From a virus: a stretch of DNA of 22,789 nucleotides. The position numbers and the translations under genes were made by a program. The DNA is taken from the IMG/VR virus record IMGVR_UViG_3300037071_000228, positions 1-22,789 of that record. One strand, given 5' to 3'. This document shows, piece after piece, positions 1,227-21,040 of the stretch (positions are counted from its first letter, which is position 1; every line of letters starts with the position of its first letter). The notes under the pieces are model-generated. The model made no database searches and was not told the DNA's origin. It saw nothing but the letters and a program-made list of their open reading frames with translations.

Positions 1227-2689
1227 CAGAAGTTGCTCCTTATCCGGGTGTGAGGCGAGACGACTCCGGGGTGGAACGTCGGCGGCAACGGCACCGTCGT
1301 GACGGTGTACGCCGTCGCGCTCGAGGCCGATCCGGTCGGGGTCACGACCTGGAACAGACCCGACGCGGCTGCGGTCGGAACCTCGGCCGTGACCTGCGTG
1401 TCCGAGTTCACCGTGAACGCGCACGGCTGACCGTTCAGACGGACGATCGTCGTCCCCAGGAGGTTCGTCCCGACGATCGCGACGAGCGTCTGAACGGGTC
1501 CAGCGAGCGGGAGGAAGCTGGAGATCGTCGGGGGAGGCACCGGGGGAGCGTCGAGCCACGCCGCGTGGGGGATGATCTCATCGACCCAGCATTGCCAGTC
1601 GGCGAGCTGCTTGTCGATGCGCATGTCGTAGTTCGCGATCGAGTCCCACATGCAGATCAGCCACCACGGGAAAGACGTCGTGTTCACGTAGTTCGCCATA
1701 TTGCGGAACCAGTTCGGCACCGTGGTCGCGAGTCCGATCGGCCACCCCCGGTTCGTCGGGAACGTGGTGAACGCCGACACCGCCTCCGTACCCGTCTCCA
1801 GGATGCACGGCAGCCACGGGTGGCGAGCTTCCATGAACGCTCGACGTCGGGTCCACCAGGAGCCGAAGTTCAGGTTGTAGTACCACTCGGCCGCACCCCA
1901 CTGCGCCGGTCGGTTGTAGACGTCGCACGACGGGTGGGTGATGTTGTCGTTCCCCCAATCCCAGTTGTCCGGGAAGAACCCGTTGTTGATCGCCGTGAGG
2001 CCGCTGAACATGAAGGGACCGTTAGGAACCTCCGTCGAGGTATCCGAAGTCGTGGAAGGCGGTCGCGTCGCGAACGGTCCCGCCGTGAGGTTGATCATCC
2101 CGATCATGCAACCCTCTTGCGTCGTCTGGCCGGAGTTCGTCCCCTTCCAGATCGAGACACCATGCGCCACCAGGATCGCGTACAGCTTCTCGCACGCCGC
2201 TCGCCAGTTGGCGGTCCCCTGCGCAAAGGTCGTCGCTCCCGAGGTCGCTGCCGTTCTCGCGTCTCCCTCCGGTTCGTGGTGGAAGTAGAGAGCGAACGAA
2301 CATCCCCACTTCCCGATCCCACGGTGGAGGTCTTGCCAGTCCGCGATGTCCTGCGCCCAGTTGTTCGCGTCGGTCCAGATTGCCTGACCTGTCGCCGCTG
2401 CACCCATCTGCGCCCAGGTGTACGGAGGACCGACCTTCACGGTGACGATCGGTAGCACCTGGTCGGTGATGTCGTTCGCGATGTTCCCGAGCGCTCCCGA
2501 GGTACCGCTCGGCGGGAAGCTGGCGGTGATGTCGTAGTAGTGGCGACGGTTCGCGGCCGTGTGCCACGACGACGGTAGGCCAGATCGCGCTCGCACCGCC
2601 GCCTCGAAGCCTCGTCGAGTGTCGGCGATCGTCTGTCGATTCCACCCCGCTCCGGTGTCCTCCCCCGTCGAGTACCCGAGGAGCGTCAT
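1226..2689 (-). CDS. Tail-associated clan GH-A-like glycosidase with C-terminal IPT/TIG domain
   Basis: The product has 487 residues from ATG 2689, which overlaps the stop of the upstream fibre gene as ATGA; a longer reading to 2731 lacks support. Residues 1-380 look like a TIM-barrel glycosidase. ALYFHHEPEGD (133-143) resembles the acid/base site of GH26-type enzymes (His138-Glu139), and PCILETGTEA (294-303) provides a plausible nucleophile Glu298 on a late strand. Many Trp residues (for example WDWGND and EWYYNLNFGSWW) fit a sugar-binding cleft. Residues ~386-463 form an IPT/TIG immunoglobulin-like domain (PPTISSFLPLAG, GTNLLGTTIVRLNG, FQVVTPTGSAS), a module common in phage tail and surface proteins. 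The likely role is depolymerisation or recognition of host cell-envelope polysaccharide during adsorption. Family and catalytic residues are inferred by motif; the substrate is unknown. Confidence 0.82.
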   Translation of the reverse strand: MTLLGYSTGEDTGAGWNRQTIADTRRGFEAAVRARSGLPSSWHTAANRRHYYDITASFPPSGTSGALGNIANDITDQVLPIVTVKVGPPYTWAQMGAAATGQAIWTDANNWAQDIADWQDLHRGIGKWGCSFALYFHHEPEGDARTAATSGATTFAQGTANWRAACEKLYAILVAHGVSIWKGTNSGQTTQEGCMIGMINLTAGPFATRPPSTTSDTSTEVPNGPFMFSGLTAINNGFFPDNWDWGNDNITHPSCDVYNRPAQWGAAEWYYNLNFGSWWTRRRAFMEARHPWLPCILETGTEAVSAFTTFPTNRGWPIGLATTVPNWFRNMANYVNTTSFPWWLICMWDSIANYDMRIDKQLADWQCWVDEIIPHAAWLDAPPVPPPTISSFLPLAGPVQTLVAIVGTNLLGTTIVRLNGQPCAFTVNSDTQVTAEVPTAAASGLFQVVTPTGSASSATAYTVTTVPLPPTFHPGVVSPHTRIRSNF

Positions 2690-4212
2690 ACGAGCGGACC
2701 CTGTTCCAGTTCGGTCGCGATGATCCCCCACGTGTTGGACGTCGAGAACGACGCGGAGATCGACGTGTCGAAGGCGTCAGATCGCCAGACGACGTGGAGC
2801 CGGATCACCGGCGACGTCATGTCGAGCGGCGGCACCGTGAGCTCCGTCCAGGTCCCCTCCGGGGTGAACGTCGCCGTCGCCGCGTTCCTGGCGAGTGCGT
2901 AGATGCCACGGTTCGCGGCGTCGTCTGCCGCTCCCAGCGTCGCCGTTGGCGCGTTGTTCGCCGCGTTCCCGGTGACGTCCTTCGCGAGCGAGAGCGCGAC
3001 CGCGCTCGACGGTGACTCCGTGGTCCGCAGGACGACCGCGCAGACCCCGACTCTGGACTCGCCGTTGATGTGCGCGACGAGCGGAGCCGCCGAGGTCGTC
3101 ACCGCGTCTCTCCCGACGAAGTGCGTCATACGTCTACGGGTCGTGCCGGCAGAGACGAACAGCACCGATCCGCCTCGCGTCCACGACGACACACCGCCAC
3201 CGGTCAGGGTCGTCAGGATGCCAGGATCGCCGTCGGAATCCACGCGCGTCTCGACGAGGAAGACGTGGCCGACCCGCTTGTTCCCGATGTTGTAGCTCGT
3301 CGAGGAGGTGTAGTCCGACCCGTTCGTCAGCCGGTCGGCGTTGTCGATCCAGTTCGTGAGCACCTCCACGCCGAGGGTCGGGTAGACCTCCGGGGGTGGC
3401 GCGCCAGCGTTCTCCAGCGCGGTCCCGTACCAGATGCCGTTCAGTTGCCAGATCGTTACGACGGTCGTGTCGTCGGCCACCGTGGAGATCACCGGCGCCA
3501 ACCCATCTGAGGTGAACCACGTGATCGACTGATCCCACGTCACGGTTCTCGGCGTGCCGCCTTGGATGAAGTGGATCGTCGCCGCCGACGCTGCGCGTCC
3601 GAGCGAGTCGTCCAGGCCGATCGCGCAGTTAGCCGAGAGCGAGATGACGTAGAACGACGCCTCCGAGAGATCGAGGGACTGCGAGCTTCCCGACGACGCG
3701 ATGATGTCTACCGCTTCCGCAGAAGGTCCGGGGGGTCCGGTGAGTCCCGCCGCTCCGGTGGCTCCGGTGGCTCCGGTGGCTCCGGCCGAGCCGTCGTTGC
3801 CGTCGGTGGCGACCAGTTGCCAGTTCGATCCGGGAGGCTCCTGGTTCGTGTGATTGGTGTCGCAGACGTAGGTGGAGAGCGAGTCGGAGTGCCGTACGAG
3901 ATCGCCGACGACGTACGCCGTGACCGCGCTCCACTCCCCCTTCGGGGTGATGCTTACACCATCCGCGCCATCGGCTCCTGGAGGTCCGGGAGAGCCAGCG
4001 ATCGCGGGGTCGATCATCTGGAAGCGATCGGTGGACTGGTTGAAGAACGGCAGCGAGCCATCCGGCCACGTCGCGATGCCATCCTCGACCGCCTGCTCGA
4101 ACAGGTTGTAGAGGAAGTGGATCGCGTCGTGATGTTGCTGGTGGAGCTTCACGTCGGGATGCGTCGCGTCGTCGGCGTAGGCGTTATCGACGTTGATCGG
4201 TAGGTCAGTCAT
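2686..4212 (-). CDS. Collagen-like minor tail / fibre protein (508 aa)
   Basis: The N-terminus (1-70) is helical and probably anchors to the tail. It is followed by short Gly-X-Y collagen-like runs at 73-85 (GSPGPPGADGADG) and 138-163, flanking a small aromatic module (91-135: GEWSAVTAYVVGDLV, then NWQLVA). That module resembles chitin-binding-type carbohydrate modules, in which 'W....Y..GD.V' is typical. Residues ~165-265 are beta-rich. The C-terminal ~230 residues form a further beta domain (GVSSWTRGG at 340-348, WGIIATELEQ near the end). GAGGAG lies 5 nt before ATG 4212. The intergenic gap to the upstream gene is 9 nt and the downstream overlap is ATGA. Collagen-like stalks are well known in tail fibres and imply a trimer. 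The likely role is receptor binding. The C-terminal domain appears related to the 226-residue protein encoded at 14329-15009. Confidence 0.88.
   Translation of the reverse strand: MTDLPINVDNAYADDATHPDVKLHQQHHDAIHFLYNLFEQAVEDGIATWPDGSLPFFNQSTDRFQMIDPAIAGSPGPPGADGADGVSITPKGEWSAVTAYVVGDLVRHSDSLSTYVCDTNHTNQEPPGSNWQLVATDGNDGSAGATGATGATGAAGLTGPPGPSAEAVDIIASSGSSQSLDLSEASFYVISLSANCAIGLDDSLGRAASAATIHFIQGGTPRTVTWDQSITWFTSDGLAPVISTVADDTTVVTIWQLNGIWYGTALENAGAPPPEVYPTLGVEVLTNWIDNADRLTNGSDYTSSTSYNIGNKRVGHVFLVETRVDSDGDPGILTTLTGGGVSSWTRGGSVLFVSAGTTRRRMTHFVGRDAVTTSAAPLVAHINGESRVGVCAVVLRTTESPSSAVALSLAKDVTGNAANNAPTATLGAADDAANRGIYALARNAATATFTPEGTWTELTVPPLDMTSPVIRLHVVWRSDAFDTSISASFSTSNTWGIIATELEQGPLV
3724..3801 (-). 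repeat. Collagen-like Gly-X-Y coding repeat with 9-bp DNA tandem
   Basis: The fibre gene here encodes Gly-X-Y triplets (residues 138-163). At DNA level the core is a 9-bp unit, gctccggtg on the plus strand, repeated about 3.7 times at 3752-3785 and encoding GAT. Short perfect tandem units like this can change copy number by slippage, which would lengthen or shorten the fibre stalk without breaking the frame. Confidence 0.85.
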
Positions 4213-7620: not shown

Positions 7621-8556
7621 TTAGACGACCTCGTACTCGATGTATGAACCTGCCAAGCGCGTGATCGGGTTCGCGTTCGCGACGCCTTGTCCCCACGCCA
7701 CGCCGAACGACCCGGCGTTCACCCCGTTCTGGATGATGATCTCGAACGCAGCTGTCCCCTTCTGATCCGCACCGGAGAACGAGCCGAGGCGCGGGTAAGA
7801 CATGGTGCCGTTGTAAGTCGGCACCGGGGAGGTCCCGGTCATAACGGGAAGAGTGATTCCTTGGCTGCCACCGAAGGCGATGTCCCATACCGAACAGACA
7901 CCGATGACGAGCGTCGGAACCAACGGTCCAGCGATCCCCCACTGCATACCTTGGCTGCCTCCCACCGCTTGCAGCCACGCGACGTTGCCGCGCACGCGAT
8001 ACTTCGTGTTGGCCGCGACCGGGAACGCGAGAACCGAGTCCATCGTCTTCGTCCCCTGCTGCGATCGCTGGAGATCGACCGACGCCGAGATGCGGTTCCA
8101 GCCGAGGTTCGCGATCGGGTCCGGGACGGTGATGCGCTTATCGACGACCTGCTCGGACTCGATCGCGGTCGTCGCCTCCGGGATGAATATCTGCGCGATG
8201 TACACCTGATCCACTTCCGCCGACCGAGGGAACGGCGCGGCGTCGGGGGTACCTGGCAGCACGCCAGCCACGCCAGCGATGTCCACGACGAGCGAGTCGA
8301 ACCTCGGCAGGAGCGGGTCGGCGTCGGGGATGGCCGCCGTCTGCGCGGAGACGTTGTAGCGCACCCCGTCGATCACGACCTGGCCGGACTCGACCTCCAC
8401 CGTCATCGCGGGGACCCCGCTCGCGGCGGGAACGCAGCCGTCGGAGATGACGCCGTATCTCCCGCCTGCGGCTCGCGCCAGCGTCTCCACGTCGGCCTGG
8501 AACCAGCGCGACTGGAACGGGTACGTGACCGCCTTGTTCGGGATCGTGAGCGTCAT
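7621..8556 (-). CDS. Minor tail protein (311 aa)
   Basis: The start ATG 8556 overlaps the tape-measure stop as ATGA and has GGAGGG 8 nt upstream; a longer reading in the same frame lies inside the tape measure gene and was rejected. Residues 1-~125 (starting MTLTIPNKAVTYPFQSRWF) include SGQVVIDGVRYNVSAQTAAI and VDQVYIAQIFIP. This is the arrangement seen in phage tail-tip and upper-baseplate proteins, where a beta domain measures a 'v.vDgv.Y' strand. The C-terminal ~130 residues form a beta sandwich with repeated aromatic strands (YRVRGNVAWLQ, GSFSGADQKGTAAFEI, SYIEYEV), probably a receptor- or sugar-binding domain. The gene immediately after the tape measure is often the distal tail protein, but I do not see the distal tail (Dit) signature here. 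Minor tail protein is therefore the safe name. Confidence 0.82.
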   Translation of the reverse strand: MTLTIPNKAVTYPFQSRWFQADVETLARAAGGRYGVISDGCVPAASGVPAMTVEVESGQVVIDGVRYNVSAQTAAIPDADPLLPRFDSLVVDIAGVAGVLPGTPDAAPFPRSAEVDQVYIAQIFIPEATTAIESEQVVDKRITVPDPIANLGWNRISASVDLQRSQQGTKTMDSVLAFPVAANTKYRVRGNVAWLQAVGGSQGMQWGIAGPLVPTLVIGVCSVWDIAFGGSQGITLPVMTGTSPVPTYNGTMSYPRLGSFSGADQKGTAAFEIIIQNGVNAGSFGVAWGQGVANANPITRLAGSYIEYEVV

Positions 8557-11291
8557 AGACCAGTCCCTCCGTTGTTCCGGCCGACCCGGATGAGTTCGTT
8601 CCGCACCTTCTCGGCTACCCGCTGGTCGTTCCCGACCCACCCGCTGATGTTCACGGTGACGTTCGGCTTGTTGCCGTGACCCCCGCCACCACCACCCTGG
8701 TTCCAGCCGGTGTCCCACGGGTTGCTGCCATGCGGCTTGCCGCCGCTCGGCATGACCCCGCCACCGCCACCGCCACCGCCGCCAGCGCTGAGCGCGGCCA
8801 CGGTCTGCTGGCGAGACATCGCGATGAGCGACTGGAGCATCGAGACGAAGCTCTCGATGGCGTCGGACAGGTTGTTGAGCTTCCGCTCGGTTCGATCGAG
8901 CGCTCGACCGAAGAACTTGTCACCGAGAGCGGTCGCGGCGTCCCCCGCCGCCTTCGCGATCGCCGCCTGCGCTTCGTTCATCTGCGCGATGAGCGCCGGA
9001 TCGCCGAGCAGCGCCTCTGCCAACGCGCTCGCGCTCGCGCCTTGGCCGGCCAACTGCGCGAGGTTCGCCTTCGAGAGTCCCTTGGCCGCAAGGCCTGTCA
9101 GGAGTTCGGCGAAGTGCACCTGCTCCGCGACCTGCTGCGCGATCGTCGCGCTGATATCGGCCGACGTCGTGGTGACGGGGTTGCCGTTCTCGTCGGTGCG
9201 ACTGAACAGAGCGTTCGCTCGCGAGAAGATGTCCATGTCGAACCCCGACCGGATCGCGTCGGTGAACTTCAACGCTCTCTCGGCCAGACGGTTGAAGTGC
9301 GCCTCGGTCTTCGTAAGCTCCTTCTGGAGTTGCTGGAAGTCAGAGGTGATCCCCGCAACGAGTCCCTTGTTCTTGTCGCCGAGCTTCGTCTTGAGCTTGT
9401 CGATCAGACCGGTGACGAGCGAGTCGAGCTTGGTGCGCATCTTCTCGACGCCTTGGATGATGCCTTCCATCCACGCCTGACCGGTACGGATACCCCAGCG
9501 AGACGGTGACTCGATCCCCAGCGCATCATCGGCGGCTTGCGCGGCTCCTGCCGCCGCCTCGCGGAACGCGGTCGCGGCGAGACTGGCGTAGGAGTTCGCG
9601 CCACTCGCCAGTCCCTCGATCCACGACTGCGCGGATCGCCTGCCGACGTTGAAGAGGCGATCCTGCGCGTCGGCGGCCTTGACGGCCGCGTCGGTGTTCG
9701 CTCGCCAGTTGGCGACGAGTTCACGCTGGATCTTCTTGGGTGCGCCAGCGTAGATGCGGAGCAGTTCGGGATGCTCGACGGTGATGTATTGCTTGAACGC
9801 ATCCGGCACCGACTGCTTGTCGATCTCCTTGATGTCGCGTACGTACTGGAGCGACGCCTTCGCCGAGTCCTTGAACGCCTTCAAGACCTCGGCTGCCGTG
9901 ATCCGCGCGTCGTCGTTCAGGTCCTCGAACAAGATGCCGATGGCGGGGATGTTCTCTCTCGCTGCGCCACGGAGTTCCTGGATCGCTGCTTTCCCGAGGT
10001 TCCCGAATGCGCGGATACCGCCGCCTGCCTTGGAGAACAGCGGCGGGAGTTCCGATACCGCGTCTCCGGCCAGACCCTCGGCCATCGCCGCTCGACCCAT
10101 CGCGTAGGTCAGTTCTCTCGTCTGCGTGACGAGGCCGGTCCCCTCGTACTCGGTCCCCTTCAAGGCGGCCTGTAGCTGCGTGAGCCGGAGTTCGCCACTG
10201 AGTATCTGCTCGGCCCACTTGCCGGTGACTTCCGACGAGTGATCGACGACTCCCGTGAAGTCGTGGAACCCGAGCGTCATCAGCGTGAACGCGCCACCCA
10301 GGATGCCGTTATCGCTCGTGAGGTTCTGGATGTCCTGGTCGAGATCGGTGATGGCCTTCTGACCTTCACCGAGGCCAACGAGGTCGAAGAAGTCTTGCGC
10401 TCCCTTCGCCATCTCCGAGAACACGCCAGCCGCGTCTCCCACGTTCTCGACGATCAGCGGCAGCACGCGCTCGCCGAGATCGGTGAGGACGGGGATGAGA
10501 TCGAGCAGCACCGGCATGAGTTCTTCGCCGATCGCCGCCTGCGCGTCCTTGAACCTCGCCGAGAGGATGCGCTGCTGGTTCGCGAGTCCATCACTCGTTC
10601 GCGCGAAGTCACCCTGCGCGTTCCCGGTGTCCTCCAGGATGATCTTGTACGCCTCTTGCGCCTTCACCGCCGCCGAGAGCGTCTCGTTGCCATGCACGAG
10701 TCCATCGGCGAGCGCCTCTTGCTGGATGCGTGCAGCGCTGAGTGACACGCCGAACTTCCGCAGCGGTTCGACTTCACCGACGAGGCCGGATCGCAGAGCG
10801 AGCAGCACGTCTTCGGGGGAGGCGTTGTTGAACGACGCGAGGTCGGACGCCAGCTGGACGAGTTGCGTGGACATCTCGCTACCGGCCTCTGCCGCGATCC
10901 CGAGGGAGTCGAACAGGTTGCCGAACGTTCCAGCGGCCTCGAGCGCCGCCTGCTGCGAGATGCCGAGCGCGGTCGCGGAGTCTTCGGACCACGCCATGAT
11001 CGTGTCGGCCGACTCCCCGAAGACGACGTTGACCTTGGAGATCGACTCCGTGAGATCGCTCGCTGCGGAGATCGAGTCACCGAGGAACCCGACGATCGCC
11101 TTACCGACCTGGACCGCGCCGAACCCCGCCAGGAACCCGGCCGCCGCCTGACCGCCGAAGCCGCTGAACGTCTTGGAGAGGAACCCTCCCTGCTTCGGGA
11201 TCGCCTTGTTCACGCCGGTGGCGACCTCCTTGCCGAAGGAGGTCATGTCCGGACGGACCGGGACGTATGCGGTACCGACGTTGGTCGCCAT
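8553..11291 (-). CDS. Tape measure protein
   Basis: The 912-residue product sets tail length by acting as the internal ruler around which tube subunits polymerise. Family signs are an N-terminal Gly/Ala-rich hydrophobic stretch (~44-75), and a minor-tail tape-measure domain (~75-280: FGESADTIMAWSEDSATALG, FNNASPEDVLLALRSGLVGE, EPLRKFGVSLSAARIQQEAL). A conserved GIESPSRWGIRTGQAWMEG segment near residue 600 follows, then long helical coiled-coil-like stretches. It is encoded directly after the frameshifted chaperone pair, the canonical position. ATG 11291 abuts the G-T stop codon TAG, with GGAG a few bases upstream. At about 0.15 nm per residue, a tail near 135-140 nm is expected. The C-terminus is odd: a run of nine Gly, a Gly/Asn/Pro-rich linker (WNQGGGGGGHGN) and a short beta tail (VTVNISGWVG). 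Confidence 0.95.
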   Translation of the reverse strand: MATNVGTAYVPVRPDMTSFGKEVATGVNKAIPKQGGFLSKTFSGFGGQAAAGFLAGFGAVQVGKAIVGFLGDSISAASDLTESISKVNVVFGESADTIMAWSEDSATALGISQQAALEAAGTFGNLFDSLGIAAEAGSEMSTQLVQLASDLASFNNASPEDVLLALRSGLVGEVEPLRKFGVSLSAARIQQEALADGLVHGNETLSAAVKAQEAYKIILEDTGNAQGDFARTSDGLANQQRILSARFKDAQAAIGEELMPVLLDLIPVLTDLGERVLPLIVENVGDAAGVFSEMAKGAQDFFDLVGLGEGQKAITDLDQDIQNLTSDNGILGGAFTLMTLGFHDFTGVVDHSSEVTGKWAEQILSGELRLTQLQAALKGTEYEGTGLVTQTRELTYAMGRAAMAEGLAGDAVSELPPLFSKAGGGIRAFGNLGKAAIQELRGAARENIPAIGILFEDLNDDARITAAEVLKAFKDSAKASLQYVRDIKEIDKQSVPDAFKQYITVEHPELLRIYAGAPKKIQRELVANWRANTDAAVKAADAQDRLFNVGRRSAQSWIEGLASGANSYASLAATAFREAAAGAAQAADDALGIESPSRWGIRTGQAWMEGIIQGVEKMRTKLDSLVTGLIDKLKTKLGDKNKGLVAGITSDFQQLQKELTKTEAHFNRLAERALKFTDAIRSGFDMDIFSRANALFSRTDENGNPVTTTSADISATIAQQVAEQVHFAELLTGLAAKGLSKANLAQLAGQGASASALAEALLGDPALIAQMNEAQAAIAKAAGDAATALGDKFFGRALDRTERKLNNLSDAIESFVSMLQSLIAMSRQQTVAALSAGGGGGGGGGVMPSGGKPHGSNPWDTGWNQGGGGGGHGNKPNVTVNISGWVGNDQRVAEKVRNELIRVGRNNGGTGL

Positions 11292-11821
11292 CTATCTCCG
11301 TATCTGTCGAGCGAAGAACTGGTCCATGGTCTTCGTGTTCTGGTTCGGTCGCTGCTTCGTGTTCAGTTCGAGTTCCATGTCGGGTAGCGCGAACTCGATC
11401 AGGCTCCAGAGCCGTCGGACTCCGAAGGCGTCGGGTCCGTAGGCGCATCCTCTGAGGTCGAGTCCGTACTTGGCTTGGAAGGCCGCCTCCGCTTTCCCCC
11501 AGTACTCGCTGAGGACTTGGCGGAGGCTCGCGCTTCCCCCGGCTTGATCCCGTACTCCCCGAGCAGACCGCCGAAGACCTCGAACGCATCCGCAATAGAC
11601 AAGCTCCCCCGTAACTCCTCGGCCTGATCGCCGAAGAGCCGGGGGAGCAATGCCTTCACGTTCTCGTAGTCGTTCCCGTTCGAGCCGAACGACTCCAGGA
11701 GATCGACCGTCTCGATCGACAACTCCAGCGGCAGGTCGTACGTCTTCCCGTCGATCTTCACCGACGGATGGATGCCTAACGCCTCTCGGCGTGCGGCTCT
11801 CGCCGCGTCCAGGTCGATCAT
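11292..11821 (-). CDS. Tail assembly chaperone G-T fusion made by -1 frameshift
   Basis: This is the extended form of the chaperone. Ribosomes read the G frame from ATG 11821, slip back one base on GGGAAAG (11498-11492), and continue in the -1 frame to TAG 11294-11292. The join is ...SSASTGGK then AEAAFQAKYGLDLRG, giving about 176 residues with a 66-residue T domain. The T segment contains YGLDLRG and RRLWSLIEFALPDMELEL, the kind of conserved region seen in actinophage T domains, and ends immediately before the tape measure ATG. In lambda-like phages G and G-T coat the tape measure and recruit tube subunits during tail assembly. The T frame has no start of its own and is free of stops from before the slip site. 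The frameshift is read from the sequence; its efficiency is unknown. Confidence 0.9.
11399..11821 (-). CDS. Tail assembly chaperone G (unshifted product)
   Basis: The product of ordinary translation has 140 residues from ATG 11821 to TGA at 11399. Residues 1-~100 form the folded chaperone domain (KIDGKTYDLPLELSIETVDLL, then FGDQAEELRGSLSIADAFEVF). The last ~35 residues are a low-complexity basic, Ser/Thr/Asp/Pro-rich tail (GGKRRRPSKPSTDSTSEDAP), the usual look of the part encoded over the T domain in another frame. It lies between the tail-tube gene (3 nt gap) and the tape measure gene. No good ribosome binding site precedes its ATG, so it is probably coupled to termination of the tube gene and made in smaller amounts. 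Confidence 0.93.
   Translation of the reverse strand: MIDLDAARAARREALGIHPSVKIDGKTYDLPLELSIETVDLLESFGSNGNDYENVKALLPRLFGDQAEELRGSLSIADAFEVFGGLLGEYGIKPGEARASAKSSASTGGKRRRPSKPSTDSTSEDAPTDPTPSESDGSGA
11492..11498 (-). other. -1 programmed frameshift heptamer GGGAAAG
   Basis: The heptamer follows the X XXY YYZ rule in the G frame (codons GGA at 11497-11495 and AAG at 11494-11492). It is the same heptamer used by the lambda G/G-T pair. Slipping back one base re-pairs both tRNAs and opens a frame that ends exactly at the tape measure start. The slip site lies in a run of five G and three A. I see only a weak possible hairpin (GGAGG with CTTCC) directly downstream, so any stimulatory structure is uncertain. 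Confidence 0.9.
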
Positions 11822-11824
11822 CGG

Positions 11825-12394
11825 TTAGCTCGCCAAGAAGTCGGGGTCGGTGATGAAGACCGAGAACGGGTCCTGCGATCCGGCTGCGGTGGCGCCGAAC
11901 GTCACCGGCAGGTTCACGATCGACGTCCGGTTGAACGTCACCTCGCCGAGATCGGTCACGATGCCGACGGGGATGTAGAAGCGGTAGACCCGCGTCCCGT
12001 CGATGACGTCGATCGTCATGGAGCGTTCGTCCAGCGTCTCTGCCGCTGCTGGCGAGAACGTGTAGGGACCGGGGTCCGCACCCGTCGTCGTCCCACCGCC
12101 GAACGCCAGACCGAGCGTCTCGCTGTTCAGCTGCGCGAGCGTGAAGCTGACCTCGAACGACTTGGAGGTCGGGATGCGCTTGATCGGGTAGAACTCCTGC
12201 CAGACGAAGATGTCAGTGACCTCCTGGCCGGGAGCCAGGCTCACCCCATCCTGGGTGGCGTAACCGAGGTCGATCCAGTCGGAGTCCACGGACGCCATGG
12301 TGCTCGATGCGTTCGTCGGTGCCGTCGCGTCGGTTGGCGCGACGTAGATGTGTCCATTCGCTGCGACGAATACTTCGTCAGCGTTGTTCGGCAC
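11825..12394 (-). CDS. Major tail (tube) protein
   Basis: The 189-residue product forms the hexameric rings of the tail tube. The pattern is typical of siphovirus tube proteins: an N-terminal strand with IYVAPTDATAPTNAS, then WIDLGYATQDGVSL, then IRIPTSKSFEVSFTLAQLN-like content, and a C-terminal EVTFNRTSIVNLPVTFGA strand pair. The start is GTG 12394, with a very strong ribosome binding site (GAGGAGGG, 6 nt upstream) matching the high demand for this protein. It is preceded by the only sizeable gap in the tail half of the window, which holds a hairpin, and is followed after 3 nt by chaperone gene G. The order terminator, tube, chaperones, tape measure makes the assignment firm. Confidence 0.93.
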   Translation of the reverse strand: MPNNADEVFVAANGHIYVAPTDATAPTNASSTMASVDSDWIDLGYATQDGVSLAPGQEVTDIFVWQEFYPIKRIPTSKSFEVSFTLAQLNSETLGLAFGGGTTTGADPGPYTFSPAAAETLDERSMTIDVIDGTRVYRFYIPVGIVTDLGEVTFNRTSIVNLPVTFGATAAGSQDPFSVFITDPDFLAS

Positions 12395-14332: not shown

Positions 14333-15009
14333 CCGACCCCCTGCGCCGCCAGGAGCTTCGGTCCACGCCTGACCTCGATCGCGATGGCACCCCACTGGAG
14401 CTTCGTCCCACCGGAGTCGGGACCGATCGTCGTCACCGATCCGGGTGACGGGTTCGACCAGGCGGCCATGCCAGTCGTCGGTGTGCCGTAGCCGGTGTCC
14501 ATGTTCTCCGTCCAGCCGGTGAACCCCATCGTCGCGGGGTTGTTCAGGTTCGCGATCGCCATGTACACGCCTGACTCGGCGCGCGTCGCCGACATCGTGA
14601 TCTGGACCGTGGTGCCGGTTCCCGGAGTCGGGTTCGACGTCGAGACGCGCTGGACGAACGTGTTCCCCGGATCGGCGCCAGCCACCTGCACGACGTGGAT
14701 GATGCAGCCGGTGTGGTTGTCCCCCGTACAGTCGAACGTGAACTCCCCCGCCGACGGAGCCGCGATCGGTGGAGCGTCGAACAGATACATCGAGTTCGCA
14801 TCCGACGCACCCCATAGCTCGTTGAGCCGTCGGGTCCAGGTGAACCCCTGGCCGCTGAACGTCGGCGCGGCTGCCACCGTGGCGGTCGCGGTGACGACCG
14901 CGAAGACCGGACGCCAGGGTGTCGCGGTCGTCGCTCCCGAGGTCGCGGTCGAAGCGCCGTCGGTCGAGCTGGCCGTCTCCGCGATCTCGGTGAACGCGAG
15001 GGGGATCAC
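14329..15009 (-). CDS. Beta-rich virion-type protein (226 aa)
   Basis: The start is GTG 15009, overlapping the preceding stop as GTGA; no strong ribosome binding site is visible, so coupling is likely. After a Thr/Ala/Ser-rich N-terminus the protein is beta-rich (PWRPVFAVVTATATV, then FSGQGFTWTRRLNELWGA, CIIHVVQVAGAD, VQITMSATRAESGVYMAIAN), ending LQWGAIAIEVRRGP. The spacing of the FTWTR, GCIIHVVQV and WGAIAIEV strands matches the C-terminal domain of the collagen-like tail fibre. This suggests the same jelly-roll-type domain is used twice in this phage. Its place upstream of the neck genes fits an exposed head decoration or capsid-bound adhesin. The product name is left general. Confidence 0.78.
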   Translation of the reverse strand: MIPLAFTEIAETASSTDGASTATSGATTATPWRPVFAVVTATATVAAAPTFSGQGFTWTRRLNELWGASDANSMYLFDAPPIAAPSAGEFTFDCTGDNHTGCIIHVVQVAGADPGNTFVQRVSTSNPTPGTGTTVQITMSATRAESGVYMAIANLNNPATMGFTGWTENMDTGYGTPTTGMAAWSNPSPGSVTTIGPDSGGTKLQWGAIAIEVRRGPKLLAAQGVG

Positions 15010-16223
15010 TTGTACAGAAGAACCGTCTGCATGGCGTTGGAGGCTGGAGCGCCGGTATCGTTCGCCGCCACGCCGGTCGTCGCCGCCTGGCAGAGCGCGG
15101 TGTCGAACTCCACGCCGGAGGGGATGTCCTTCGTGAACGCGCTCAGCGGTGGCACCGGGAAGGGACCGAGGAACGTCGCGGTCGAGCCGACGGTCGTGTT
15201 CGCAGCGGTGGCGTTGTAGAACCGGAGGTACAGCACCGAGGTCGTGGCGTTGTAGCAGTAGATCGAGTACAGCTGGCCTCTCGAGGTCTTCACGTCGTCT
15301 TCGGATTCATCGACGTCGATGTTGTTGATGACGAGCAGACCGCCTTGCGTGTGCGGCTGCTGCGTGACGATCGCCTTACGGTCCAGCGTCATCCGAGCCG
15401 CGCCACCATCACCCTCGTCGAGCGAGTCGGTGGAAGTCTCGTCGGCCTGGAACCCCGCCATCATCACCTTCGTCGTCGCGGGGGTGAACCCAGCGTCGTC
15501 GGCGACGATCGCGTCGTCGATCAGTTGCACCGAGGTCACGATGGAGGCTTGGGTCCCCTCGATACCGTCCACGTGACCGTCGATCGCAGTCAGCAGCGTC
15601 TCGACTCCATCGACCCGTCCGTCGATCGTAGTCAGCGACGAGTTCGTGGTGCCGATGAGCGCCTCGATGCCGTCCACGTGACCCGTGATCGTGGTCAGTT
15701 GGCCTTCGATGCCATCCACTCGACCGTCGATGGTGGTCAGCGTGGAGTTCGTCGTGCCGATGAGCGCCTCGATGCCGTCCACGGAGCCTTCGATGCCATC
15801 GACGTGACCGTCGATCGCGGTGAGCAGCGTCTCGATGCCGTCCACACGGCCGTCGATCGTCGTGAGACTGGTGTTAGTGGTCCCGATCAGTCCCTCGATG
15901 CCATCGACGTGGCCGATCACCGTGTCGAGCTTCGTGTTCGTCGAGCCGACCAGCGTCTCCAGGCCGTCCACGTGACCATCGACCGCCGCGAGGGTGGAGA
16001 TCACGGTGTCGAGGTCTGTCTCGACGTTCGCGAGCGTCGCCTCTGTCGCTGCGCCGGTCGGCAAGACGCTGGAGACGACCCCCACGGAGTAGGAGTCCTC
16101 CTCCATGATCGCTTCGTCCACGCCGCCGCGAACGAGCTTCACCAGTTGGTAGTGCCGACCCGCGATCTCGTCGGTGGCGACGGTCGCGCCGGCACCTGGA
16201 GTGATATCGATGTTGTCTGCCAC
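15006..16223 (-). CDS. Heptad-repeat coiled-coil virion fibre (405 aa)
   Basis: The start is GTG 16223 with GGGAG 5 nt upstream. The N-terminal ~45 residues (IDITPGAGATVATDEIAGRH, then LVKLVRGG) match a short domain common in phage structural proteins, usually written 'GsGatVa.DeigG.hyQrvKl'. Residues 60-80 lead into a coiled coil at 81-225 built from alternating 14- and 21-residue units (DGRVDGIETLLTAI and DGHVDGIEALIGTTNSTLTTI types), with V/I/L at a and d positions. Residues ~240-405 are a beta domain with YSIYCYNATTSVLYLRFYNA and FPVPPLSAFTKDIPSGVEFD. This is the C-terminal type of many virion proteins, where 'lysiyvyN....vrylklYN' introduces the fold. The layout (anchor, rod, globular end) is that of a fibre. 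The head-gene context favours a capsid fibre or decoration protein. Confidence 0.85.
   Translation of the reverse strand: MADNIDITPGAGATVATDEIAGRHYQLVKLVRGGVDEAIMEEDSYSVGVVSSVLPTGAATEATLANVETDLDTVISTLAAVDGHVDGLETLVGSTNTKLDTVIGHVDGIEGLIGTTNTSLTTIDGRVDGIETLLTAIDGHVDGIEGSVDGIEALIGTTNSTLTTIDGRVDGIEGQLTTITGHVDGIEALIGTTNSSLTTIDGRVDGVETLLTAIDGHVDGIEGTQASIVTSVQLIDDAIVADDAGFTPATTKVMMAGFQADETSTDSLDEGDGGAARMTLDRKAIVTQQPHTQGGLLVINNIDVDESEDDVKTSRGQLYSIYCYNATTSVLYLRFYNATAANTTVGSTATFLGPFPVPPLSAFTKDIPSGVEFDTALCQAATTGVAANDTGAPASNAMQTVLLYK
15549..15983 (-). repeat. Heptad-based coding repeats (units of 42 and 63 bp)
   Basis: Residues 81-225 of the 405-residue protein consist of about eight related units of 14 or 21 residues, plus one extra 7-residue insert (SVDGIEG). 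All lengths are multiples of seven. Consensus short unit: DGRVDGIETLLTAI; consensus long unit adds GTTNSTLTTI. At DNA level the words 'gatgccgtccac' and 'ccgtcgat' recur many times. Because every unit keeps the heptad phase, copies can be gained or lost without disturbing the coiled coil. Confidence 0.88.
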
Positions 16224-16887: not shown

Positions 16888-17160
16888 TTACTCGGGGACG
16901 ATCTCCTCGCGCTCGTCGTAGACCCCCGTGATGGCGCCGTTCTCATCCCGGATCAGGTGCTTGGTGCGATCCGGTCCGATGAGCGATGCCACCCGGCCGT
17001 ACTCGTCGCGGACCACGGTGCTCGTCGCGAACGGGATGCGCAGGACCCCGGAGCCTCTCTCGGTCCCGAGGATGATCGCTTCCCGCTCGACCGGATCGGC
17101 CAGCGTCTCTACCTGCTCGACGAGCTTGTCGAGCTTGTCTCGATCTTCGGTGCCGTCCAT
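16888..17160 (-). CDS. Small acidic hypothetical protein (90 aa)
   Basis: The product begins MDGTEDRDKLDKLVEQVETL, a charged helix with heptad spacing, followed by ADPVEREAIILGTERGSGVL, then VVRDEYGRVASLIG and LIRDENGAITGVYD. The last two segments resemble YD-like turns ('RDe.GrV..l.g' and 'rDenGaitgVyd'), so a short beta-hairpin repeat is likely. ATG 17160 has GGAGG 4 nt upstream. The N-terminal 52 nt overlap the C-terminus of the glycerophosphotransferase-like gene in another frame. No family recognised. It is the first gene after the sugar-chemistry cassette and precedes the block of small virion-type genes. Confidence 0.75.
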   Translation of the reverse strand: MDGTEDRDKLDKLVEQVETLADPVEREAIILGTERGSGVLRIPFATSTVVRDEYGRVASLIGPDRTKHLIRDENGAITGVYDEREEIVPE

Positions 17161-17969
17161 AGAACCTCCAAGGCTCTCTGCGTGGCGCTCCCAAGGTAGG
17201 GGAATAGTCCACGGGTTGCTGCTCTGCGTGGCTCCTCGTGGCTCTCAGGAGCTTGTATCGCGTCTCTGACGCGCTCCACCAGGGTTCCGGGGGTCGCGTG
17301 GCTCCCTACGTCGCTGTACCACTCGTATCTGAGGCCGGAGCTCACCGAGATGAAGCTCTGCTGACCGGGATAGTCCAGGAGCACCACCGGCCGGTCGAGC
17401 GCCGTCCACTCGTAGATCGTCGAGGAGTGGTCACAGACGTACACCGAGGCTCGTTCGACCACCTCCCGGAAGTCGGGGACCCACTCGACGTTCAACGATC
17501 TCCAGAACGGCTCCATACGCTCGGCTCGTGGGTGGCCGTGGCCGATCACCGGCATCCTCGTCACGAGGTCTTCGATCGCCTCGGCGTAGTCCTCCAGGAT
17601 GCGCGAGCGGAACAGCGAGAGCCAGTGGAACGACACGGCCACCGGACCCTCGACCCGATGCGGCACCTGCACGAGCGCGTCCATCTTCGGCGTTCCGACC
17701 ACGGAGGAGCCGATCCCCGCTGCGGCGTACCTGTCCGCAAGGAACTGGTTCGGCGCGAGAACGAGAGACGCGGTGTCGCGGATGAGGTCGAGGGTCCGGT
17801 CGCCGTGCCATTGCAAGCCGACGCCGTGATCCATGTAGATCGAGCCGGGGTTCTGTCGAAGCTCCCGCGTCGAAGCGACCAAGGCCGGGGGTCCGTCGTC
17901 TCCCGTCCAGGCATCGCGTATCGGTGCGAGGTGTTGCTCGTACTGCGGTTCGTTCGCGATGAACCTCAA
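17109..17969 (-). CDS. CDP-glycerol glycerophosphotransferase-family (GT-B) enzyme
   Basis: The start is TTG 17969, overlapping the glycosyltransferase stop as TTGA; the longer reading to 18134 is antiphase inside that gene. The 286-residue product carries the signature series of the TagB/TagF group: SIYMDHGVGLQWHG (43-56), VVGTPKMDAL (90-99, the 'G.Pr.D' motif), VIGHGHPRAE (141-150, the 'HP' motif), and SVYVCDHSSTIYEWTALDRP (175-194, the 'D.SS..fE...l.rPv' motif). Those enzymes add glycerol-phosphate or related units from a CDP-activated donor to wall teichoic acid or capsule. This one lacks an N-terminal membrane-targeting region and is shorter than bacterial family members. Its Ser-rich C-terminus (IETSSTSSSSR) is encoded where the next gene overlaps. 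The donor is unknown; a UDP-sugar-using GT-B enzyme is an alternative. Confidence 0.8.
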   Translation of the reverse strand: MRFIANEPQYEQHLAPIRDAWTGDDGPPALVASTRELRQNPGSIYMDHGVGLQWHGDRTLDLIRDTASLVLAPNQFLADRYAAAGIGSSVVGTPKMDALVQVPHRVEGPVAVSFHWLSLFRSRILEDYAEAIEDLVTRMPVIGHGHPRAERMEPFWRSLNVEWVPDFREVVERASVYVCDHSSTIYEWTALDRPVVLLDYPGQQSFISVSSGLRYEWYSDVGSHATPGTLVERVRDAIQAPESHEEPRRAATRGLFPYLGSATQRALEVLWTAPKIETSSTSSSSR

Positions 17970-19348
17970 TACCCGATACCGACCCGGACGTCGCCGATGT
18001 GCGTCACCCACGGCTCGCCGTCGCCGATGAACGCCGCGAACCGACCCTTGCTCCATTGCGATCGACCGAACGTCTGCTCGCTCCCTCGCGTGTCCGGCCA
18101 GCCGTCGTCGATCAGCGACCTCCGGTACACGCACGGGTTCGTCGTCCAGAAGTTGCGGTGGCGGAGGTAGGGGATACCGTCGGCGAGTAGATGCTCATAG
18201 GTGTCGGGTCGCTCCTGGATGATCCCCCCCACCCGCTTCTCAGCCGGTGCCCAGGCGTGCCGCAGGAGCGCTACCTGCGCCAGCGACTCGTCGTACTCCA
18301 GCACCGAGATCAGATCGTCCAGGTCCACGTCACGGTCGAAGGTGAAGTCTTCCTCGAGATGGAAGATGAACGGTGACCCCTGGCCGTTCTGCTGCGACTC
18401 GTACTCCCATATGCTCCGCATCGCTCCGGTGTACCCGAGCTTGCCGGGGGTCGTGTGGATATCCCAGTCCGGGTAGACCTTGTGGAGCCACCGGCTGAAC
18501 CGCTCGTTGCCGGAGTCGTCCTGGATCGTTCGACGGACGATCTTCCCGTGGACGTGCTGGTTGAACGAGTCGATCGTCGCAGCGATGTAGTCCTGCCGAC
18601 CAGCCGAGATGACCACGACGTCGATGCCGTGGCGCTTGATCTCGTGCACCTCCTCGCCGGGGACGTATCGCTGCGCGACGTTGCGCTCGTTCAGGACCCG
18701 CTCGACCACAGGCCAGCCATCCCGAAGCGCCGCCGAGTACCGCTCCGCGAGCCTTCGACCGACGTTCCACTCGCGAGTCGGTCGAGCGATCGGGAGAGAC
18801 GGTTCGTGCCAGAGATGCCATGCCGTCCCAGGCAGTTGGTCGGCTCCACGGAGAACGACGGCTGCCGCCCAGCAAGCGATGTCTTCGTGTCCCCATCCCT
18901 GGAAGCGAGCATCGAATCCTCCCAGCTTCTCGAAGAGATCGCGACGCATCATCCAGACGCGCGACGTACACGGATCGCGTCGAGCCTCGGCGAACTCCTC
19001 CCAGCCGTGGCGACCTTCGAGGAGCTTGTCGGTACCGATCCGAGAGAGATCAGCGCCGATACGGTGCGGGACCGTGAGGCGTCCCGTCTCCAGCGCCGAC
19101 TCGTATCCGGCGACGACCTGGCGAGCGTCTTCCTCGAACACGTCGGCGTCCACGATGACGAGCACGTCGAAGTCTCCGGCCTGTCGAGCGCCTTCGTTGA
19201 TGCACCACGACCGGTTGAACGGCTCGGTCCCGGCGTGCTCGACCTCGAAGATCGGCCAGCCGAACCGCTCCCATACCTTCCGGCAGTACGTCCAGGCTCG
19301 CTCACGATCCGGGTCACCTGGTCTCCACGGCACGACGATGGCTGGCAT
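17966..19348 (-). CDS. Two-domain GT-A glycosyltransferase
   Basis: ATG 19348 shares one base with the upstream TGA (TGATG) and has AGGAGA 5 nt upstream. The 460-residue product has two GT-A-like halves. Half one (1-~235) has VLVIVDADVF (62-71, a DXD metal/nucleotide site at 67-69) and FDARFQGWGHEDIACWAAA (145-163), the region typical of polypeptide GalNAc- and galactosyltransferase C-terminal domains ('GWG.ED'). Half two (~241-460) begins IDVVVISAGRQDYIAATIDS, like GT2 enzymes, and has FHLEEDFTF (329-337) as a possible DXD-equivalent. It would transfer one or two sugars from nucleotide donors. No membrane segment is visible, so it probably acts in the cytoplasm, on protein or on a precursor. 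The acceptor is unknown. An antiphase N-terminal extension to 19504 was rejected. Confidence 0.88.
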   Translation of the reverse strand: MPAIVVPWRPGDPDRERAWTYCRKVWERFGWPIFEVEHAGTEPFNRSWCINEGARQAGDFDVLVIVDADVFEEDARQVVAGYESALETGRLTVPHRIGADLSRIGTDKLLEGRHGWEEFAEARRDPCTSRVWMMRRDLFEKLGGFDARFQGWGHEDIACWAAAVVLRGADQLPGTAWHLWHEPSLPIARPTREWNVGRRLAERYSAALRDGWPVVERVLNERNVAQRYVPGEEVHEIKRHGIDVVVISAGRQDYIAATIDSFNQHVHGKIVRRTIQDDSGNERFSRWLHKVYPDWDIHTTPGKLGYTGAMRSIWEYESQQNGQGSPFIFHLEEDFTFDRDVDLDDLISVLEYDESLAQVALLRHAWAPAEKRVGGIIQERPDTYEHLLADGIPYLRHRNFWTTNPCVYRRSLIDDGWPDTRGSEQTFGRSQWSKGRFAAFIGDGEPWVTHIGDVRVGIGY

Positions 19349-19929
19349 CACGCTCTCCTGAACGCGGTCGCACACGCCGCGCCGTGCTCGGTGGTCCGTA
19401 TCTCGTACTGCGCGAGTCTCGCGCCGCCGGCCACCGCCCACCGCTCGATCTCCTCCGGGTCCAGCGTGTGGATGTGGCAGTCGTTCTTCTCGTAGCCGAC
19501 CCACTCGAACAGTCGGACGATCGGCGCCAGTCGTATCGACTCCCGGACGATGAGTTCAGGGTCCAAGACGTGCTGGAGCGTGTTGTATATCCATATCTCG
19601 TCGGGATCCACCGACGGCGCGACGAGGAACACCTCACCCGGTATCTGGAGCACCTCGATACCGGCGTCGGCGTATCGAGCGCCGACCCACGCGGGGAACT
19701 CCCCCGGATCGACGACGACGCCACGCGACCATCCCTGCGCCTTCAAGAGCAGCGAGACGGGACCGCCGCCGATATCGACGATGTTCCCCTTGGTGTGGAC
19801 CGCTGAGGAGTAGCAGTCGAGTCCCATGAGGATCGCGGCGTCCATCTGCTCGATCTCGACGGCGAGGGTGTTCACGCAGTTCCCCCACCACTTCATCTCG
19901 GCCTTCTGCGCTTCGCGCCAGACCGTCAT
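19348..19929 (-). CDS. SAM-dependent methyltransferase (193 aa)
   Basis: ATG 19929 overlaps the previous stop as ATGA and has GGAG 5 nt upstream; longer readings of the frame (to 20379) are antiphase in the upstream gene. The class I fold is shown by motif I NIVDIGGGPVSLLLKAQG (49-66), the acidic residue of motif II in VVVDPGEF (71-78), and motif IV-like DEIWIYNTLQHVLDP (110-124), followed by a helix and strand (RLAPIVRLFEWV). The N-terminal 48 residues are helical (EMKWWGNCVNTLAVEIEQMD). The target cannot be told from sequence. Its position between two other methyltransferases and a glycosyltransferase suggests a sugar or small-molecule acceptor rather than DNA; no DNA-methylase catalytic motif (DPPY or PC) is present. 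Confidence 0.86.
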   Translation of the reverse strand: MTVWREAQKAEMKWWGNCVNTLAVEIEQMDAAILMGLDCYSSAVHTKGNIVDIGGGPVSLLLKAQGWSRGVVVDPGEFPAWVGARYADAGIEVLQIPGEVFLVAPSVDPDEIWIYNTLQHVLDPELIVRESIRLAPIVRLFEWVGYEKNDCHIHTLDPEEIERWAVAGGARLAQYEIRTTEHGAACATAFRRA

Positions 19930-20477
19930 GCGCGCTCCATGAGCCAGATGCCTTCCCAACCCCACTGCATCGAGTGGTCGGGTGGATAGTCGATCTGGAC
20001 GAACTCGCACCGATCTCCGGGGAGCATCAGCAGGTCGGCGACCTCGGGTCCGGACACCGCGAGATCGGGAACCGGCCAGTCGGGTCCCCCGGCATCGAAC
20101 TCCTCCGGCTGCGGAGGGATGAAGAACACGATCGCGGCTCGCGCAGTCCACGAGCTGGCGAAGTTCGCCGCGATCGTGCGCCAGTCGGCATTGTGCTCCA
20201 GGACGTGGCGCATCATCGCGCAGGGGACCTCCGAGCGGTACGTCCGGAGATCGGCCTGGATATCGCACCAGCGCGACCACGCGCCGTCGATGCCGATGTA
20301 GGGAGACTCGTCGAAGAACTGCTTGGCCCAGCCGACGCCGCATCCCCAATCCTCGACCGTGCCGTGTCCGTCGAGCCACGCGGCGCAGATGGCGTAGCTC
20401 TCGGTGTCCTCGTAGGCGAACTGCTGGCGCCGATCTCCGTAGTTCCAGGGACCGTACAGCGTGGCCGGCGCACTCAT
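19926..20477 (-). CDS. SAM-dependent methyltransferase (183 aa)
   Basis: The start ATG 20477 overlaps the FkbM-type stop as ATGA with GGAG 5 nt upstream; an in-frame ATG 15 nt earlier is less likely. The N-terminus SAPATLYGPWNYGDRRQQFA (2-21) is followed by motif I VEDWGCGVGWAKQFF (41-55), an acidic residue in YIGIDGAWS (60-68), and MMRHVLEHNADWRTIAANFA (88-107). The last is a classic 'HVLEH' motif of small class I methyltransferases. PPQPEEF and other aromatic or acidic residues complete the C-terminal half. Known relatives with 'HVLEHN' often act on sugars or on cell-surface metabolites. It probably works with its neighbours; the substrate is unknown. Confidence 0.86.
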   Translation of the reverse strand: MSAPATLYGPWNYGDRRQQFAYEDTESYAICAAWLDGHGTVEDWGCGVGWAKQFFDESPYIGIDGAWSRWCDIQADLRTYRSEVPCAMMRHVLEHNADWRTIAANFASSWTARAAIVFFIPPQPEEFDAGGPDWPVPDLAVSGPEVADLLMLPGDRCEFVQIDYPPDHSMQWGWEGIWLMERA

Positions 20478-21040
20478 ATCGACTCCAGCCACGACTCGAT
20501 CTGCTCGGCGTGGGTCGGGAGATCGGGGTAGGTGGTGCGGAAGTTCACGCCGGTCAGCGAGAGTCTCGCGACGATGCTCTGCGGAGCGTCGGAGATCGCG
20601 GGGACCTTGCGCGCATCGAAGTCGATCATCAAGCTGCCGATCCTCTCGATCTGTCCTGATCTCAGGAGGTCTTCGAGGATGGGGACCTCGCCGCCTTCGC
20701 AGTTCATGGATACCACGGACCCCCGACAGATCGCGCGGAAGAACGCGCTGGCTCTCACGGCTCGTACGTAGGTCTTCACGCTGGCGTCTACGTCGTCCTT
20801 GTCGGGGTAGAGGCTCGCTTCGAGTCGATCGTTCACGCCGTACATCGTCGTCGAGCCGGACGTGTGCGAGAGCGCGAACTCGTGGACCACGATGCGAGGG
20901 TCGAACGAGTACCGCTGGCGCAGGATCGCCGCCTGTACCGGCATCGGCTCGATCGCGTGTATCACGTCGAACGGATACCTCGAGCGGCGTACTTCGTCGA
21001 TGGTCTGGCCTTCGTGAGCTCCAACGTCCACGAAGATCAT
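20474..21040 (-). CDS. FkbM-family methyltransferase
   Basis: The 188-residue product starts at ATG 21040 after GGGAGG (5 nt spacer). It shows the FkbM pattern: motif I IFVDVGAHEGQT (2-13), motif II HAIEPMPVQAA (28-38, the 'fEP.p' site), IVVHEFALSHTSGSTTMYG (50-68, the 'v.n.Alsd..G...f' segment), and SMNCEGGEVPILEDL (111-125), the 'iDvEGaE..vL.G' signature of the family with the first Asp replaced by Asn. Family members O-methylate hydroxyl groups of sugars, glycans or polyketides. It opens the five-gene cassette after the capsid gene and is separated from it by the hairpin gap. The Asn substitution at the signature could alter metal or acceptor binding; activity is likely but unproven. Confidence 0.88.
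   Translation of the reverse strand: MIFVDVGAHEGQTIDEVRRSRYPFDVIHAIEPMPVQAAILRQRYSFDPRIVVHEFALSHTSGSTTMYGVNDRLEASLYPDKDDVDASVKTYVRAVRASAFFRAICRGSVVSMNCEGGEVPILEDLLRSGQIERIGSLMIDFDARKVPAISDAPQSIVARLSLTGVNFRTTYPDLPTHAEQIESWLESI

Follow-up and report, generated by a model that had tools for sequence, protein, structure and literature searches.

The window analysed here, i.e., the whole stretch of 22,789 nucleotides covering positions 1 to 22,789 of IMG/VR virus record IMGVR_UViG_3300037071_000228, very probably holds an ordinary case of the known GGGGGAA G/GT frameshift, with the slip location corrected with respect to a first-pass annotation that had placed it at GGGAAAG. A short tail assembly chaperone and a frameshifted long one are made by most long-tailed phages. 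Comparison with related sequences gives high confidence that the locus is a G/GT pair of the actinobacteriophage type, which would slip at the GGGGGAA heptamer lying 42 bases upstream of GGGAAAG (Table 1). The general scheme of the first-pass annotation, namely a G/GT chaperone produced by a -1 shift, with its T frame and end point and its position between the major tail protein (MTP) and tape measure protein (TMP) genes, is borne out by comparative sequence evidence, and both the -1 frameshift and the T domain look well supported.

Table 1. Features of the G/T locus and their positions in the window.
Feature	Coordinates	Strand	Basis
Gene G, zero-frame tail assembly chaperone, 140 aa	11821-11399	minus	ORF
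T frame, from slip site to TAG, 80 residues	11292..11540	minus	T-profile matches
Tape measure protein (TMP), ATG at 11291	8553..11291	minus	phrog_1535 (E 6.9e-26); tblastn to actinophage TMPs
Major tail (tube) protein (MTP), directly upstream of G	11825..12394	minus	PF25681 (E 4.1e-37); phrog_117; tblastn to actinophage MTPs
Most likely slip site G GGG GAA, in phase with G	11540-11534	minus	Relatives' heptamer, T-profile start, N65 spacing, SEA-PHAGES reports
GGGAAAG, first-pass choice, probable decoy inside the hairpin	11498-11492	minus	In phase
Hairpin, plausible stimulator; outer stem GCCUCCGC/GCGGAGGC = 11527-11520/11492-11485	11485..11527	minus	Folding
GGGGAG, possible Shine-Dalgarno-like stimulator, weak, 14 nt upstream of GGGGGAA	11555..11560	minus	Sequence reading

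The gene set comprises a head maturation protease, the major capsid protein, head-tail connector genes, a tail terminator, the MTP, G/T and the TMP. This neighbourhood is of the long-tailed phage type, with G and T lying between MTP and TMP, all on one strand. An actinobacterial host is likely, since the tail genes (MTP and TMP, by tblastn) match phages of Streptomyces, Propionibacterium, Gordonia, Microbacterium and Arthrobacter. The G protein consists of a conserved body (about residues 1-94) followed, past GGGGGAA, by a 44-residue S/T/P-rich tail. It matches the PHROG tail assembly chaperones weakly (best E 0.0019), and among selected loci the G of L119 aligns with its first 92 residues (1-92) at 36% identity (E 5e-10). 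Neither G nor T has a Pfam match, and G has no tblastn match in named phages; when G, MTP, TMP or T of the window was used singly to scan viral contigs for close relatives, nothing useful came back. One candidate relative, L002, turned out to be unrelated, the only shared element being a DGKTYDLP peptide. AlphaFold models of T and G made from single sequences are of low confidence and provide weak hints only; in that of G, residues 95-112 have a pLDDT below 50.

The T frame lies at -1 relative to G and closes at TAG 11294-11292, abutting the TMP ATG at 11291, so that the 66-residue frame described in the first pass, from GGGAAAG to a TAG directly ahead of this ATG, has the right coordinates. 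Its remark that T has no start of its own also holds: ATG, GTG and TTG are absent from the frame from 12212 down to 11378, and a gene caller would therefore miss T. The open frame as such is weak evidence, because it extends over 306 codons (12212-11292) in a window of 65% GC. Both profile matches and codon usage point to T as a conserved coding frame.

Two heptamers in the G ORF have the phase that a -1 shift from G into T requires. The G frame divides GGGAAAG as G GGA AAG, as the first pass had it; GGGGGAA had been missed. Codon usage predicts an in-phase GGGAAAG at ~1.4e-4 per codon, or ~2% per 140-codon ORF. For an in-phase GGGGGAA the figure is lower (7.7e-5 per codon), and the window's other genes have it at none of 5178 in-frame positions. 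A slip at GGGAAAG as in lambda would give a GT made of G residues 1-110, with ASAKSSASTGGK and then AEAAFQAK, lacking QVLSEYWGK; the 66 further residues up to TAG would read AEAAFQAKYGLDLRG...QIRR. This scheme, which we regard as very unlikely, has the merit of using G_GGA_AAG, a heptamer with proven, strong shift activity in bacteria and listed as highly shift-prone in E. coli (PMC5009743), and this counts against the choice of GGGGGAA. It also predicts a GT of equal length (176 aa) and a shorter zero-frame tail past the site, of 90 nt. However, the T frame from GGGGGAA reads GGSASLRQVLSEYWGKAEAAFQAKYGLDLRG, its portion between both sites (SASLRQVLSEYW) being the first helix of the T domain, and a slip at GGGAAAG would replace this conserved helix by an S/A/K-rich stretch.

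The extent of T homology also argues against GGGAAAG. A first T profile was built from 16 annotated relatives, with the window excluded; Gordonia phages Sekhmet (no recognised site near the G end) and GMA1 (sole candidate site 117 nt from the G stop) and Microbacterium phage Megan (no joined gene) were left out. Searched against the six-frame window, it gave one significant match (25.7 bits, E 2.9e-7; next best 4.1 bits), aligned from model position 1, which is the GG of the GGGGGAA site. T scored 29.1 bits when taken from GGGGGAA versus 14.2 from GGGAAAG, the homology upstream of GGGAAAG being thus worth 14.9 bits. None of 2000 controls, in which the 14 residues upstream of GK were shuffled or swapped for off-frame translations of other window genes, reached 29.1 bits (maximum 23.0). 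A second profile was derived from the viral-contig loci listed with the 65-nt spacing (N65) described below; their selection fixed the motifs at either end and left the intervening residues free. This profile gave 39.5 bits (E 7.7e-12) in the six-frame window, and 42.7 bits from GGGGGAA versus 22.6 from GGGAAAG, with 0/2000 controls at or above. The T frame was the only one to match the T profiles significantly. By tblastn, T from GGGGGAA retrieved 10 records, all of them tail assembly chaperones with weak scores (E 5-10), and T from GGGAAAG a single one, an unrelated helicase.

Codon usage switches frame at or near GGGGGAA, since the G frame is ahead by 102 bits upstream of this site, whereas the T frame is ahead by 8.5 bits over the 11 codons between both sites and by 20.8 bits past GGGAAAG. 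An excess of 8.5 bits is typical if T is coding (29th percentile), and is seen off-frame in 0.14% of truly coding 11-codon stretches. T homology and T-like codon usage reach 14 codons upstream of GGGAAAG, to GGGGGAA, and the in-phase G GGG GAA coincides with the start of T homology.

The first-pass annotation had suggested aligning T with other phages to see whether frame and heptamer are conserved; the frame is, but not the heptamer. A joined tail assembly chaperone with a -1 T frame is annotated in nearly all named relatives collected (the annotation of E6 has two overlapping genes), and GGGAAAG is found near the G stop in none of the 16 used. An in-phase G GGG GAA near the G end is present in half of them (8/16: Kromp, Armstrong, PFR1, P9.1, Pumancara, Eden, Franklin22 and Sheen), the others having GGGAAAC, CCCAAAC or CCCAAAA. 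T starts in these relatives with GG(I/S)xxL...(E/D)xD....YG(V/I)DL.

A similar picture emerges from the spacing of these motifs in viral contigs. When GGGGGAA-N{53,77}-TAYGGNNTNGAYYT was searched, 74 of 121 among the matches listed had exactly N65, the spacing of the window, a peak that is conditioned on GGGGGAA and for that reason has less weight in favour of this site. With GGGAAAG-N{11,35}-TAYGGNNTNGAYYT, only 2/120 among the matches listed had the window's N23, and the spacings were spread, with no clear phase bias (48/36/36). GGGAAAG was absent from the first 80 nt of T in all 69 distinct related loci among the matches listed. The nearest locus among those listed, L063, has a T with 51% identity over 53 residues, starting at residue 1, and an MTP match upstream; in this locus and six other near ones, the MTP is 32-41% identical to that of the window. 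Two further GGGGGAA-N65-YGVDL matches, L045 and L139, have a T frame unlike a tail chaperone (GGNPFGQGSIRSC...VVYGVDLAKSIDW); they probably correspond to another gene matching by chance and were kept out of the T profile.

A predicted hairpin starts 6 nt past GGGGGAA, within the range of 5-9 nt at which a stable structure is expected in the actinophage arrangement (-26.0 kcal/mol and z -4.6 for the hairpin alone). The 50-nt stretch past GGGGGAA has an MFE of -27.4 kcal/mol, among the lowest 0.5% of MFE and 1.6% of z in 1516 windows of the same strand. No stable fold was found past GGGAAAG (z -0.14 and +1.6), which itself falls inside the hairpin, where its T-frame reading encodes W-G-K; this is probably a chance product of T codons and stem. 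A hairpin with z <= -2 follows the site in 7 of the 16 named relatives, not in all, and that of L063 has the same geometry as the window's. The family-wide comparison weighs somewhat against GGGGGAA: covariation of the window's hairpin is not significant across the family, the window-column stem, paired in 41% of cells, does not exceed shuffles, and the position of the 3' arm differs from group to group. The usual stem of the family is ~10 nt shorter and slightly above shuffles. Given this lack of significant covariation and the shorter usual stem, a stimulating role of the hairpin is plausible, and not more. The GGGGAG motif further upstream is a possible additional stimulator, of weak Shine-Dalgarno-like character.

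T homology, codon usage, relatives and hairpin hence all favour GGGGGAA over GGGAAAG as the slip site. The junction GGK-AEAAFQAK proposed in the first pass is probably wrong, since the T sequence upstream of GGGAAAG (GGSASLRQVLSEYWGK) is already conserved and has T-like codon usage, relatives slip earlier, and the hairpin follows GGGGGAA. AEAAFQAK is a tryptic peptide under either slip model.

A feature that sits less well with GGGGGAA is the length of the zero-frame G tail past this site, 132 nt versus a median of 18 nt in the related loci listed. This long tail left room for the first pass to look for a site further downstream. It is unusual, not unique: tails of 123 and 105 nt are found in L027 and L040, and 30% of off-frame 45-codon stretches in the window's genes are stop-free by chance. 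The zero-frame extensions of L027 and L040 past GGGGGAA are S/T/P-rich tails that resemble the window's.

According to the proposed mechanism, most ribosomes would translate G as far as the stop codon at 11399. A smaller share, whose tRNA-Gly and tRNA-Glu sit on the GGG and GAA codons of G GGG GAA, would be halted by the hairpin, slip one base back to GGG GGA and follow the T frame up to the TAG ahead of the TMP ATG, thereby producing GT. The predicted GT would have G residues 1-96 (...KPGE) followed by SASLRQVLSEYWGKAEAAFQAKYGLDLRG...; this T part, SASLRQVLSEYWGKAEAAFQAKYGLDLRGCAYGPDAFGVRRLWSLIEFALPDMELELNTKQRPNQNTKTMDQFFARQIRR, adds 80 residues, for a total of 176 aa. Re-pairing of tRNA-Glu on GGA requires a G:U pair, which is a point against GGGGGAA. 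G:U pairs have been put forward to explain re-pairing of the second tRNA at GGGGGAA in PRFect, where the 'fivetwo' motif is reported as GGGGGAA in all of the roughly thousand SEA-PHAGES cases (PMC10885494), and GGGGGAA with a pseudoknot was assigned in corynephage phi16 (PMC5506516). In lambda, gpG binds the TMP and the T part of gpGT binds the MTP, at a ratio of ~30:1 (PMC5009743); by analogy, G may coat the TMP and the T part of GT may recruit the MTP.

Use of both sites is another very improbable reading, whereby the two in-phase heptamers, 42 nt apart, would yield two GT isoforms differing only in residues 97-110, a 14-residue segment of the first T helix, with the hairpin perhaps selecting the site. 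Zero-frame ribosomes do get to GGGAAAG, and the reading keeps its slim chance because G_GGA_AAG is highly shift-prone in E. coli (PMC5009743); against it, none of the 69 related loci listed has the second site, and no fold follows it. A T made on its own through internal initiation or reinitiation, and not as a fusion, would fit the overlap of G and T and the abutting TMP gene, but is next to impossible given its start-less frame and the nearly universal annotation of joined fusions in relatives.

With slippage placed at GGGGGAA, the locus compares well with actinobacteriophages (Streptomyces Kromp, Microbacterium Armstrong, Arthrobacter Pumancara, Mycobacterium Sheen, Propionibacterium PFR1), which have in common with it the MTP - G - T - TMP order, the heptamer and phase, the T start GG(I/S)xxL and YG(V/I/L)DL motif and, in several cases, a hairpin just past the site. 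It differs from the annotated relatives by its zero-frame G tail (132 nt versus 0-21 nt), its shorter T from the site (82 aa versus roughly 115-150) and its chance in-phase GGGAAAG. Uncultured loci L063, L082, L094, L119, L049 and L032 have GGGGGAA at the 65-nt spacing, T 38-51% identical from residue 1 and MTP 32-41% identical; in contrast to the window, their zero-frame G mostly ends a few codons past the site and they lack GGGAAAG. With lambda G/GT, the locus has in common a -1 fusion of chaperone domains between MTP and TMP, presumably with the same role. Lambda slips at GGGAAAG, whereas the evidence in the window favours GGGGGAA, and no relation between the window's G and lambda G was detectable in the searches run.

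The significance is mostly one of annotation, with a corrected GT protein for an uncultured actinophage-like virus. An ORF's most familiar heptamer can turn out to be a decoy, and placement by motif only risks a wrong junction; the new frame's homology and codon usage are a better guide to the slip site. The pair of sites 42 nt apart also makes a clean test construct.

Several other genes, all on the minus strand, deserve a mention. A block at 17109-21040, flanked by the major capsid gene and the head-tail genes, encodes three proteins with no Pfam match, a galactosyltransferase-like one (PF02709, E 2.6e-5) and a methyltransferase of FkbM-like type (PF05050, below cut-off). It may be an unusually placed cassette for surface glycans or virion glycosylation. 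The product of 2686-4212, with a short collagen-like GxxG stretch and a weak CBM_5_12 match, is probably a tail fibre. That of 1226-2731 has a C-terminal IPT/TIG domain (E 1.6e-8), the remainder being without Pfam match. At 15006-16223, a 405-aa coiled-coil protein (DUF7310, E 7e-15) contains many VDGIExLIGTTNxxLTTIDGR-type repeats.
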